This document shows, piece after piece, positions 1-11,542 of a DNA stretch of 40,537 nucleotides; the first letter of the stretch is position 1, and the number at the start of each line of letters is the position of its first letter. The position numbers and the translations under genes were made by a program. The notes under the pieces are model-generated. The model was not told the DNA's origin and did no database searches. It saw only the letters and a list, made by a program, of their open reading frames with translations. Origin of the DNA: a virus; the IMG/VR virus record IMGVR_UViG_3300031825_000412, positions 1-40,537 of that record; one strand, written 5' to 3'.

Positions 1-630
1 TCACGCGGGGATGATCCAGGCGGCGAAATCGCCGAAGCGGAACACCTCCAGCGCGCCCGGACCGAGCTCCTCGATGTCGATCGGCCGCTGCACCCCCGAG
101 AGCGCGATCTCCTTCTCAACGATCTCCTCGGCGCTCACCCCGGCACGCACCTTGCCGGCTAGCGTCAGGCGGAGGTGGACGATCGCCTCATAGCCCGCCG
201 GCGGCATGCACTTGTCGACGACGATCAAGGCGCCGCCCGGCCGCAGGAGCCGCCTGAGGCGGGCGACCAGCGCCGCCCGCTCGGCGACCGGCAGGAACAT
301 CAGCGTCAGGAACAGGATCGAGACGTCGTGCGGGGCGAAGTCGAAGGCGAGCGCGTCGGCCTCGACGACGCTGCCCGGCGCCTGGTAGCGCCGCGCGAGG
401 TTGCGGCAGGGCTCGATGGCGACGAGCCGCGCCTCCCGCTCCTCGAGCGTCGCGCCGATCGCCCGGCCGACGTTGCCCGTCGAGGCGCCGATGTCGTAGA
501 CGAGCCCGCCCGGCGGGATGTAGTGGCGGGCGACCAGCGCCACTGCATCTGTCACCATGTCGTACCACGGCAGGTGTGCCCGGACGTGGCGATCGAAGTC
601 CGGCAGGGTCTCGAAGGTCCAGTCGCTCAC
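1..630 (-). CDS. CmoA-like class I SAM-dependent methyltransferase
   Basis: A 209-aa Rossmann-fold methyltransferase. Motif I is VYDIGASTGNVG (residues 44-55), the acidic residue closing strand 2 is E73 (VAIEP), and a motif II/III region follows at EADAL (90-94). The layout from the N-terminal FDRHV...PWYD to the C-terminal FRFGDFAAW resembles CmoA, the carboxy-SAM synthase of tRNA wobble-uridine modification. In my by-eye alignment the CmoA arginine that I recall holding the carboxylate falls on a glutamate, so ordinary SAM chemistry is also possible. The GTG start overlaps the stop of the ParB-methyltransferase gene as GTGA and has a GGGGTG upstream. It is the last gene of the Com-led cassette, so its substrate may be phage DNA or a cofactor used on it. 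The methyltransferase fold is secure; the role is inferred. Confidence 0.8.
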   Translation of the reverse strand: MSDWTFETLPDFDRHVRAHLPWYDMVTDAVALVARHYIPPGGLVYDIGASTGNVGRAIGATLEEREARLVAIEPCRNLARRYQAPGSVVEADALAFDFAPHDVSILFLTLMFLPVAERAALVARLRRLLRPGGALIVVDKCMPPAGYEAIVHLRLTLAGKVRAGVSAEEIVEKEIALSGVQRPIDIEELGPGALEVFRFGDFAAWIIPA

Positions 631-2111
631 AGCGTCACCCCGAGCTGGCGGGAGAAGGCCGCGATCGCCTCGCCGGCGAGGCCCATGCGCGAGCCGTCCG
701 GGTAAGGCAGGTCGAACTCGAAGACGAGCGCGTCGCGCAGCGCGCCGCGGTCGATCGGCCGCGGCCGCCGGCAGATCGCCGTCACGTTGTTGATGTGCCG
801 GCCGATCGTCACTTCCTCGAAGCGGGCTTCGAACAGCGCCTTGAACTCGTCGGGCGCATGGAACTTCTGGATCTTCGGCGCCGCCCGCAGGTCGCCGAGC
901 AGCGTCCCGGGCTCCTCGGCCGGGAACTGGATGCGGCCGCGCGAGGCGGCGGAGAGATGCCCGCCGCCGAGCACGCCGCGCCAGCCGGGATCGCCGTCGC
1001 CGCGCGCCGCCGCGAACACCGTCGTCGTCGGCCGGCAGAGGGCCGCGACGATCGCCACGAGGTGCGCCCGGTCCTCGGCGAACGGCACCGAGTTGAGCAC
1101 GCTCGACAGCACGACCGAGGAGAACGCCCGACCGTCGGCGGCGGCCCGCAGCAGCGCGCGGGCGGACGCCCGCCCGGCCGCCGGGTCGGGCGCGTCGCCG
1201 GCGATCGGGAACGGCTCGAAGGCGAGAACGTCGATGCCGCGCGCGGCGAGCATCGCCGCCTCGTCACCATGTCCCGCGCCGAAGTCGAGGACGCGGCCGC
1301 CATAGGCGGCGCGCCAGTCCGCGAGGCTCGCGTCGAGATCGAAGTCGGTGGCGCGCCCCTTCCACACCGGGAAGACGAAGCCCGAGCCGAGGTGCTTCCG
1401 GCGCAGCCGCGCCCGGCGGAAGGCGTTGTAGCGCAGGAGGTCGGCCGAGACGCCGGCGAAGGCGAAGTCCATCGACAGCGCGTTCAAGGCGAGCCGCGCC
1501 GCCGCCGCGCGCCGGCGGCCGGGCACCACCACGCACGACGCCGCCGCGGCGCCGTCGACGGCGAGCCGGCAGAGCCGACCGGCGCCGTTGAGGACGCGGA
1601 GGCCCTCGTCGACGACGAGCGGATAGGCGACGCCGGCGACGAGGAGCGACCCGGCGACGCTCGCCATGTAGTCGTCGAACGGCTCCGGATTGGCGGCGAG
1701 AAGGTCGCCGATCGGGCGATCCTCCGCCGCGAGGCACGGGAAGGGATCGCGCGTGTCCGGCAGGGCCGCGAGCCGGCGGGCGAGCGCCGGCGCGTCGATC
1801 TCGCCGTGCCGCACGTCGCGCCCCCGGAAATCGTTGGTGGCGCGATTGAGCAGGATGTTGAGGCCGCGGCGCCGGCCGTCATCGGCGACCGCCACCGTCA
1901 GAACCGGCGCCTGATCGAGCCCGATCCGGCGGGCCTCCCGCGCCCGCTGGTGGCCGGAGAGCAGAAGGCCGTCCGGCGTCGCCACCAGCGGCAGCAGGAA
2001 GCCGAGCTTGGCGAGCGACAGCCGGACGAGCGCCAGGCGCTCGGGCGAGGCCTCGCGCGGGTTGTCCGCATCGGGGCGGAGGTCGGCGAGCGGACGGAGC
2101 GAGAGGCTCAT
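627..2111 (-). CDS. ParB-like domain / SAM-methyltransferase fusion protein
   Basis: A 494-aa multidomain protein. Residues 1-95 form a ParB/sulfiredoxin-like domain with the signature LLLSGHQRAREARR (around 49-62). Residues about 155-215 look like a second, diverged ParB-like unit (YPLVVDEGLRVLNGAGRLCR). Residues 272-430 form a class I methyltransferase with motif I GGRVLDFGAGHGDE and an acidic E299 ending strand 2. ParB-like domains can bind DNA and bind or hydrolyse nucleotides, and they recur in phage and bacterial DNA-modification systems. Its place just after the Com-type regulator is where Mu carries mom. The start overlaps the preceding small ORF by ATGA, so the two are translationally coupled. 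I infer a DNA-modification enzyme. A partition role is unlikely, because there is no ParA and the phage integrates by transposition. Confidence 0.8.
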   Translation of the reverse strand: MSLSLRPLADLRPDADNPREASPERLALVRLSLAKLGFLLPLVATPDGLLLSGHQRAREARRIGLDQAPVLTVAVADDGRRRGLNILLNRATNDFRGRDVRHGEIDAPALARRLAALPDTRDPFPCLAAEDRPIGDLLAANPEPFDDYMASVAGSLLVAGVAYPLVVDEGLRVLNGAGRLCRLAVDGAAAASCVVVPGRRRAAAARLALNALSMDFAFAGVSADLLRYNAFRRARLRRKHLGSGFVFPVWKGRATDFDLDASLADWRAAYGGRVLDFGAGHGDEAAMLAARGIDVLAFEPFPIAGDAPDPAAGRASARALLRAAADGRAFSSVVLSSVLNSVPFAEDRAHLVAIVAALCRPTTTVFAAARGDGDPGWRGVLGGGHLSAASRGRIQFPAEEPGTLLGDLRAAPKIQKFHAPDEFKALFEARFEEVTIGRHINNVTAICRRPRPIDRGALRDALVFEFDLPYPDGSRMGLAGEAIAAFSRQLGVTL

Positions 2112-2308
2112 AGCGCGAGCCTCCGCCGGATCTCCGCGAGCAAGGCCTCGCGGCCGAAGCCCGCCGCGTTCTGCAGGCCGCGTTCCCAGCGCCGGAACGC
2201 CCGGTCGGAAACGAGGAAGCGGTAGGAGCCGACGCTGATCCGCACCTCGATCGCGGACGCGCGGGCGGCGCGGCTGACGGTGTCAGCCGCCTTGGTCTTC
2301 CGAGCCAT
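2108..2308 (-). CDS. Small basic protein of the Com cassette, unknown function
   Basis: A 66-aa basic protein that I do not recognise. Its ATG lies inside the end of the com-like gene in another frame (26-base overlap), and its stop overlaps the next gene as ATGA. This mirrors Mu, where the gene controlled by Com overlaps com. AGGAAAGG sits just upstream of the ATG as ribosome-binding site. The C-terminal half (FRRWERGLQNAAGFGREALL) looks helical and could be a small partner or DNA-binding subunit of the ParB-methyltransferase. The tight coupling on both sides supports a real gene; homologues were not checked. Confidence 0.6.
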   Translation of the reverse strand: MARKTKAADTVSRAARASAIEVRISVGSYRFLVSDRAFRRWERGLQNAAGFGREALLAEIRRRLAL

Positions 2309-2477
2309 GAACGGCCCTTTCCTGGGCGCGCTCGCGGCGCTCGGGTGTGGGCTCGGGGGGCCTCAGGATGGTCAGGGTGCCACAGCGGCGGCACTTGATC
2401 TCGATCGCGTCGGCGATCGCGTTGCGGGCCGCGCGAAACAGTAGGGCGCGGCAGCGACCGCATCGTACAGACTCCAC
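2283..2477 (-). CDS. com: Com-family zinc-finger translational regulator
   Basis: A 64-aa protein with two zinc knuckles, VRCGRC at residues 4-9 and IKCRRC about 20 residues later, followed by a basic polar tail. This is the pattern of Mu Com, which binds mom mRNA and exposes the mom ribosome-binding site. The only usable start is GTG at 2475-2477, because a TAA lies two codons upstream in frame. No strong Shine-Dalgarno is visible. In Mu, com is followed by mom; here the following genes are a 66-aa ORF, a ParB-methyltransferase fusion and a CmoA-like methyltransferase. It probably acts as a late, post-transcriptional gate so that the modification enzymes are made only at the end of the lytic cycle. 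Confidence 0.85.
   Translation of the reverse strand: MESVRCGRCRALLFRAARNAIADAIEIKCRRCGTLTILRPPEPTPERRERAQERAVHGSEDQGG
2314..2327 (-). promoter_or_regulatory. Small hairpin with the ribosome-binding site of the 66-aa ORF in its loop
   Basis: On the minus strand GCCC-AGGAAA-GGGC can fold with the Shine-Dalgarno AGGA in the loop, six bases before the ATG of the 66-aa ORF. It lies inside the com-like coding region, which is where Mu Com acts on its target. The stem is only 4 bp, so this is a candidate Com-responsive element and not a demonstrated one. Confidence 0.35.
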
Positions 2478-10543: not shown

Positions 10544-11542
10544 TCAAGCCCCCTTGATCTCGATCGCCGTCGTGTAGCCGCCGCGGCTCACCCGGTGGCG
10601 GGCCGAGGCGATCAGCCAGCGGCCGGCGTACTTGCCGAAGCCGGTCCCGAGCGCGATCACCTGACCGGACACCAGCAGCGGGTCGCCGACGAGGTCGAGC
10701 GAGCCGGTGCGCCCCTCGGCGTTCGCCGCGTCGAGCCGCGATTGCGCCAGCCGCCGCGCGTGCGCCTCGTCCTCGATCCGCTCGTCGATCGTCAGCGTGT
10801 CGCCGGTCTTCACCCTGAGATCATCGGCCTCGACCGTCACGAGCTGCTTGCGGTCCGGATCGAGGTACTGCACCCGCGCCTTTGAGAACGTCCGGTGCGT
10901 CGGCTCGGCGAGCCGCCAGCGGGTGATGCCCGTTCCTGCCGCCAGGCTGAAGGTCCGCACCGGCTCGGCGCCGGCGACGGAGGCACGCGAGGTGAACACG
11001 CAGTGCGCGCCCTTGGCCGTGAAGTAGTGCCCGGTGTCCTCGGCGAGCCGTGTCAGGAATTCGAGGTCGCGCTCGCGCCGCTGCGTCACCCGCTTGAAGC
11101 GGATGTCGTCGATCGTGCCGGAAACGCTCATGCCGTTGCGTGCCGCCACCTTGCCGGCGATGTCGGCGAGGCCCTGATCCTCATAGGCCTCGGTGCGCTT
11201 CGTCCGCAGCGCAGAGGAAGGCTTGGCGGAGAGCGCCCGGAAGGTCAGCACGTCTCCGCCGGCGCGGTCGCCGGAGGCTTCGGGCTCGTCGACCTCGAAC
11301 TGCCCGCACGGCATCATCGGGCCGCCGAGATAGCCGATCCAAGCCTCGCAAAGGTCGCCGTGCTCCGGCCGCCAGGCGCCGCGCCAGAGGCCGAGGTCGT
11401 CGCGCAGCGTCACCTCGATCTCGTCGGCCTCGCCGTGCAGCTTGTCCTCATAGGCGAAGTCGAGGACGTGCGGGTCGAGGTCGGCCGTCACGTCGCGGCC
11501 GTTGATCACCAGGCGGAGGACGGGTTTCGGGACGGTGACCAT
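10544..11542 (-). CDS. D: Tail hub protein D (late control D family)
   Basis: A 332-aa P2 gpD/Mu gp44-family protein. Typical parts are LVINGRDVTADLDPHVLDFAYED at the N-terminus, ADEIEVTLRDDLGLW, the central QRRERDLEFLTRLAEDTGHYFT and the C-terminal SRGGYTTAIEIKG. It forms the hub that connects the tube to the spike V, which lies directly downstream. The ribosome-binding site GGAAG nine bases before the ATG lies inside an inverted repeat (11548-11557) that can pair with 11595-11604. Confidence 0.88.
   Translation of the reverse strand: MVTVPKPVLRLVINGRDVTADLDPHVLDFAYEDKLHGEADEIEVTLRDDLGLWRGAWRPEHGDLCEAWIGYLGGPMMPCGQFEVDEPEASGDRAGGDVLTFRALSAKPSSALRTKRTEAYEDQGLADIAGKVAARNGMSVSGTIDDIRFKRVTQRRERDLEFLTRLAEDTGHYFTAKGAHCVFTSRASVAGAEPVRTFSLAAGTGITRWRLAEPTHRTFSKARVQYLDPDRKQLVTVEADDLRVKTGDTLTIDERIEDEAHARRLAQSRLDAANAEGRTGSLDLVGDPLLVSGQVIALGTGFGKYAGRWLIASARHRVSRGGYTTAIEIKGA

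Follow-up and report, generated by a model that had tools for sequence, protein, structure and literature searches.

The virus record IMGVR_UViG_3300031825_000412 from IMG/VR (positions 1 to 40,537; this whole stretch of 40,537 nucleotides is called the window below) carries at its left end a cassette of four genes on the minus strand. They run from position 2477 to 1 in the order com, small, ParB-methyltransferase (ParB-MTase) and CmoA-like, and adjacent genes share 26, 4 and 4 bases (com/small, small/ParB-MTase and ParB-MTase/CmoA-like, respectively). The genes and the domains of the fusion protein are as follows.

2283..2477, minus strand: com, a Com-type zinc-ribbon protein of 64 amino acids (Pfam Zn_ribbon_Com, PF10122, E=1.7e-11)
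2108..2308, minus strand: small, 66 amino acids, corresponding to the C-terminal domain of a ParB-family partner, here encoded on its own
627..2111, minus strand: ParB-MTase, 494 amino acids (PHROG 5475, phrog_5475, E=8e-89, nearly full length)
1839..2111, minus strand: ParB_N-like domain 1 of ParB-MTase (residues ~1-91, GHQR motif at 53-56)
1524..1739, minus strand: ParB_N-like lobe 2 of ParB-MTase (residues ~125-196, degenerate motif VLNGxGRL)
762..1325, minus strand: class I methyltransferase domain of ParB-MTase (residues ~263-450; Pfam Methyltransf_23, E=1.5e-6)
1..630, minus strand: CmoA-like protein, a predicted synthase of carboxy-S-adenosylmethionine (carboxy-SAM, Cx-SAM), 209 amino acids (PHROG 4752, E=8e-40)

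The record is a Mu-like prophage: genes for MuA, a MuB-like protein, Gam and GemA were found, as were those for terminase, portal, major head and tail sheath proteins, and the cassette forms the record terminus, where Mu has com-mom. All four open reading frames (ORFs) lie where the first-pass annotation had placed them, and its description of a Com-type gene heading four overlapping genes at the left end agrees with the ORFs, the overlaps and the Pfam Com match. The order com-small-ParB-MTase-cmoA, which that annotation had proposed to search for elsewhere, is repeated in loci L001 and L053 (Roseibium sediminis), and com-small-ParB-MTase is found in L079, where it runs into the contig end. 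This recurrence shows that the arrangement, a single operon of overlapping genes, is not due to chance. The window record starts at the cmoA stop codon, with any genes past cmoA out of view; in L053, a 65-codon ORF is all that separates cmoA from an apparent host gene, so that no pathway gene is obviously missing there.

The com product has four cysteines (CxxC-x19-CxxC), all conserved, and is 36% identical to Mu Com and 49-52% identical to the cassette-heading Coms of L001, L053 and L079. Judged by its sequence it is a genuine Com-family protein, and by analogy with Mu Com, the translational activator of mom (PMC6483171), it is a probable translational activator. Mu Mom gave no significant match in the window with either tblastn or full-sensitivity phmmer, as expected from the absence of Mom in the first-pass annotation. 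The gene called a small basic protein there is present, and its product can now be identified as a stand-alone ParB-partner C-terminal domain: among the 31 non-redundant ParB-MTase loci, 27 have the domain according to a hidden Markov model built for it. The domain is free-standing in com-type loci, and elsewhere forms the C-terminus of a larger protein upstream of ParB-MTase, which usually carries a ParB_N-like N-terminus.

The CmoA-like gene had been read as a second methyltransferase, an assignment that is probably wrong, as the family profile covers E. coli CmoA (4gek) over its full length (E=7e-55, 223 positions) and the protein is most likely, from its sequence relationships, a phage Cx-SAM synthase like that of Synechococcus phage S-B43. 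The S-B43 CmoA has been proven to make Cx-SAM, with which it supplies the DNA carboxymethyltransferase CmoX (PMC12783734, Yang et al., December 2025). CmoX is a C5-methyltransferase (C5-MTase) with an arginine in motif X (Arg350) that carboxymethylates DNA cytosine at C5, and CmoY, an asparagine-synthetase-like enzyme, attaches glycine after the CmoX step (PMC12783734). Phage CmoAs from loci with either CmoX or ParB-MTase are 40-59% identical to the window CmoA. A C5-MTase is the neighbor of most of its viral relatives, and many of these (40-58% identity) adjoin C5-MTases with the CmoX-diagnostic Arg. The column of S-B43 Arg350 holds Arg in 43 of the 44 locus C5-MTases that have a residue there and Gly in one, a C5-MTase beside CmoA in the SPbeta-like Staphylococcus phage of L051 (3980-5679), with motif X Gly rather than Arg or Asn. 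E. coli CmoA Arg199 forms a salt bridge with the carboxylate (PMC3663124); the equivalent position is Glu in the window CmoA and likewise in the proven S-B43 enzyme. Thus, Arg199 is not diagnostic for phage CmoAs, and it was rejected as a criterion.

To the 5' side of cmoA, the double-ParB-like/S-adenosylmethionine (SAM)-methyltransferase fusion that had been read from the sequence was modeled with AlphaFold2, and the model (pLDDT 90.9, pTM 0.86) shows two ParB_N-like lobes plus a class I methyltransferase, in line with that reading. Domain 1 matches Spo0J/ParB/Noc from PDB in a profile search (E=6e-12) and ParB-CDP (6sdk) in Foldseek, and lobe 2 is defined by repeated secondary structure in the model together with a reading of the sequence, with no separate Pfam match. 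The methyltransferase domain carries motif I (DFGAG, 276-280), E299-P300 and N340-SVPF. Neither PF01555 nor PF02086 was reported for the protein in a Pfam scan. A phosphorothioation-associated reading (TIGR04096) was rejected, as only 2 of 42 members match, with a best E of 0.03.

To place the pair among its relatives, about 90 loci were surveyed, with homologues taken from genome and viral collections plus named phages. A search of viral contigs with the window ParB-MTase alone returned no matches, and an alignment query recovered homologues. Counting the window, 50 loci (31 non-redundant) belong to the close ParB-MTase family; another 37 (19 non-redundant) make up a distant clade. Occurrences include phages and prophages of Pseudomonas, Aeromonas, Gordonia and Roseibium, as well as many metagenomes. 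A CmoA gene is present in 44/44 close-family loci with enough sequence, the remainder being contig ends; it mostly lies immediately 3' of ParB-MTase, and the pair frequently overlaps by a few bases. No CmoA was found in the fetched flanks of the distant clade (0/37 loci). This clade, represented in part by L058-L075 and L121-L143, is found in Streptomyces, Lachnospiraceae and viral contigs, and is presumably SAM-dependent.

The near-obligate, often overlapping pairing and the lack of CmoA around the distant clade point to a shared pathway. They thus count against the possibility that CmoA chiefly serves to deplete or remodel host SAM against SAM-dependent defences, which would leave ParB-MTase with a separate role, for example in packaging or partition. 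SAM depletion is raised as a possibility in PMC12783734. ParB-MTase is often close to terminase or other phage genes, as this explanation would have it; we nevertheless consider it very unlikely.

The other methyltransferases encoded with the pair were also surveyed. No C5-MTase was found in 28 of the 31 ParB-MTase records, including the complete phages Evaa, PA_L9 and HJ05; the C5-MTases of the remaining three give no support to a hidden CmoX, one having Asp at motif X and two having no residue aligned there. No N6_N4 or D12 methyltransferase was detected in 13 ParB-MTase records, and the complete genomes of Evaa, PA_L9 and HJ05 have no C5-, N6_N4- or D12-methyltransferase at all. ParB-MTase is therefore the sole recognised candidate, among those methyltransferase families, for a user of the CmoA product. 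The window likewise has neither a C5 (PF00145, DNA_methylase) nor an N6_N4 (PF01555) methyltransferase.

A maximum likelihood tree was generated from 65 CmoAs by a quick search without bootstrap, in which some sequences are long-branched and single placements are uncertain; partners were assigned by co-location, across several kilobases in a few loci. In this tree, CmoX-partnered (29) and ParB-MTase-partnered (29) CmoAs interleave, with 8 partner changes, at least 4 of which are forced by well-supported branches. The window CmoA falls inside a supported set of 11 CmoX-partnered and 7 ParB-MTase-partnered sequences. As the partners interleave on the CmoA tree, CmoX and ParB-MTase probably share the same CmoA product.

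Plain methylation, the multi-step reading of the first-pass annotation, would make ParB-MTase an ordinary SAM-dependent enzyme that methylates DNA and would have the CmoA-like protein, also an ordinary methyltransferase, act later. It is compatible with the intact class I SAM-binding motifs of both proteins and with the existence of the distant, CmoA-free and presumably SAM-using ParB-MTase clade. However, it leaves unexplained the constant presence of CmoA in the close family, the CmoA relatives common to CmoX systems and the exchange of partners in the tree, and the closest characterised phage homologue produces Cx-SAM. We regard plain methylation as unlikely.

The cassette is better interpreted as a DNA modification system of two enzymes that depends on carboxy-SAM and replaces Mom, its transferase being a non-C5 DNA carboxymethyltransferase, a reading to which we assign a probability of roughly 0.6. 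In the proposed scheme, Com would act late in infection to switch on translation of the coupled genes, in the way that Mu Com acts on mom, and the CmoA-like enzyme would convert SAM and prephenate to Cx-SAM. Both ParB_N-like lobes, together with the ParB-partner domain encoded by small, would dock ParB-MTase on DNA; the enzyme would take Cx-SAM instead of SAM and move the carboxymethyl group (-CH2-COOH) onto phage DNA bases, and the carboxymethylated product would shield the DNA from restriction. The ParB modules, the location behind a Com gene at a Mu-type terminus and the analogy with CmoX all favor DNA as the substrate. The first-pass annotation had proposed a DNA hypermodification of undefined chemistry; the Com-headed, Mom-less and probably hypermodifying nature of the locus is retained, and the chemistry is now probably carboxymethyl transfer.

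Basic residues conserved in ParB-MTase may bear on the use of Cx-SAM. R227, R233, R348 and K413 are invariant in 31/31 non-redundant close-family members, R348 and K413 lying inside the methyltransferase domain and R227 and R233 just upstream of it. The R227, R348 and K413 positions are basic in 0/19 members of the CmoA-free clade, which substitutes Q, Q/E and mostly Q, respectively, and R233 is rarely basic there. CmoB relies on the basic residue K91 (PMC4482062), which lies 37 residues upstream of motif I, compared with 49 residues for ParB-MTase R227. In an hhalign comparison of the ParB-MTase profile with CmoB, motif I alone was aligned, and pocket residues are thus not transferable.

Several results weigh against a carboxymethyltransferase system of this kind. 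Other invariant columns also split the two ParB-MTase clades and no residue is tied to the Cx-SAM carboxylate; because so many further columns separate the clades, the basic-residue argument for Cx-SAM use is weak. The closest structures to the methyltransferase domain are small-molecule and other N-/C-methyltransferases (CcbJ, GSMT, PsmD, GNMT and METTL6), not DNA methyltransferases, and NSVPF occupies the segment where DNA amino-methyltransferases have DPPY, which is absent. With the CmoA equivalog model TIGR00740, the window sequence alone scores 57 bits, under the cut-off of 193, and its identity to two characterised CmoAs is just 22-23%. No conserved inhibitory or Com-target hairpin was found across the three com loci (z-scores -1.7, +0.65 and -0.04). 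Lastly, an amide ligase is present only in Aeromonas phage HJ05, and the S-B43 hypermodification step is therefore not general here; no CmoY-type gene with an Asn_synthase domain was found in the window.

As for the target of the proposed carboxymethyl transfer, an exocyclic amine is preferred over cytosine C5, because ParB-MTase does not have the C5-MTase fold, and would be the probable site. Mom modifies adenine N6, which makes adenine N6 attractive here too, by analogy and as no more than a lead. That ParB-MTase is the first natural DNA transferase to carboxymethylate an exocyclic amine, producing N6-carboxymethyladenine (or N4-carboxymethylcytosine), can be advanced only tentatively. N6-carboxymethyladenine would be the acid counterpart of the Mom base of Mu.

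An RNA substrate has also to be considered, in which the cassette would modify tRNA or another RNA in a cmo5U-like manner and ParB-MTase would stand in for CmoB. METTL6, which is among the weak fold matches of the methyltransferase domain, is a tRNA enzyme. It was in the modification of tRNA U34 that CmoA first became known (PMC3663124, PMC4482062). However, no CmoB was found above the cut-off in four bacterial genomes carrying the system, and tRNA modification is disfavored because these hosts have no CmoB; in Roseibium, the prophage copy is the only CmoA-family match found. Further points against RNA are that the sequence relation of ParB-MTase to CmoB is limited to motif I, that ParB_N-like lobes are DNA/CTP-associated modules, that ParBc genes also accompany the CmoX DNA system (PMC12783734), and that Com and the terminal Mu position indicate DNA protection. 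An RNA target therefore appears highly improbable.

The proposed system can be compared with four others. It is like the CmoA-CmoX(-CmoY) system of S-B43 (PMC12783734) in its phage CmoA lineage, the pairing of CmoA with a transferase, the frequent ParBc neighbor and the interleaved CmoA tree. It differs in that the window transferase is not a C5-MTase, having no DNA_methylase domain and consequently neither an SPPC motif nor a motif-X Arg, and in that the window has no Asn-synthetase-like ligase and its cassette is at a Mu-type end, under predicted Com control. With com-mom of Mu it shares a Com homologue at the head, overlapping genes, a terminal position and a presumed anti-restriction role, but it has no Mom homologue, a Cx-SAM pathway is proposed for it, and three genes follow com where Mu has one. 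The E. coli CmoA-CmoB pathway to cmo5U34 in tRNA has the CmoA family and the logic of carboxymethyl transfer in common with it, while the similarity of ParB-MTase to CmoB is confined to motif I and the hosts of the system lack CmoB. The CmoA-free ParB-MTase fusions of Streptomyces and other loci (~18-24% identical) have the same domain order and the DFGAG and N340 motifs, but R227, R348 and K413 are replaced and CmoA is missing from 37/37 loci.

The first report of carboxy-SAM serving for DNA carboxymethylation in nature dates from December 2025 and concerns a C5-cytosine enzyme only; a preliminary search in the same paper gave no N6- or N4-carboxymethyltransferase candidates (PMC12783734). 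No literature joining CmoA, ParB and phage was found, the CmoX paper using the term ParBc and subscription papers and preprints lying outside the search. The CmoA/CmoX branch of this chemistry has thus been described, although neither the ParB-MTase branch nor its control by Com is in any paper found. A phage pathway of CmoA plus a DNA carboxymethyltransferase is already known; what appears to be new is the transferase family, together with its ParB partner and the arrangement under Com control. If the proposed system is confirmed, ParB-MTase would be a second, separate enzyme type for DNA carboxymethylation chemistry and would provide an additional DNA handle for amide chemistry. Mu-like phages would then exchange the entire Mom chemistry yet keep the Com switch. 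Were the carboxymethyl group to go on an exocyclic amine, they would have arrived at a base disguise close to that of Mom along a quite separate path, through carboxy-SAM, with the regulator unchanged. The CmoA-linked ParB-MTases and their CmoA-free relatives form a clean set for testing how a methyltransferase gains the use of Cx-SAM.

Additional genes are found near the pair in some loci. A protein of 130-160 amino acids with a start like that of haloacid dehalogenase (HAD) phosphatases (LLDLNYT...) and no Pfam match frequently lies between ParB-MTase and CmoA (L080 2897-3310, L054 9512-9931, L047 2633-3115 and ~20 similar loci). It is absent from com-type cassettes, and is a possible extra member of the pathway. 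A 2-oxoglutarate (2OG)-Fe(II) oxygenase is near the ParB-MTase/CmoA pair in L102 (14655-15248) and 10 other loci from related phages, and is also close to CmoA in Erwinia phage Y3 (L145 6981-7619). Aeromonas phage HJ05 (L049 6257-7420; record 10737-11015) has a 3-deoxy-D-arabino-heptulosonate 7-phosphate (DAHP) synthase (PF00793, E=1e-49) near CmoA, together with an Asn-synthetase-like gene. As DAHP synthase is the entry enzyme of the prephenate pathway, it would raise the supply of the CmoA co-substrate, a point in favor of the Cx-SAM reading, and the Asn-synthetase-like ligase could amidate the carboxymethyl group.

CmoA homologues are also found with other candidate partners. Dozens of Erwinia jumbo phage records (48 counted) carry one, often annotated as a tRNA methyltransferase; in Erwinia phage vB_EamM_Y3 (L145), CmoA adjoins an Asn-synthetase-like gene, and a C5-MTase-like gene lies ~18 kb away. 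The record of Alcaligenes phage Afa-NA1 (L147 5947-6699, 9172-10491) has no C5-MTase, and its CmoA homologue lies 2.5 kb from a D12-type adenine methyltransferase with a long N-terminal extension. This enzyme is possibly a further Cx-SAM partner, with the classical N6-adenine fold.

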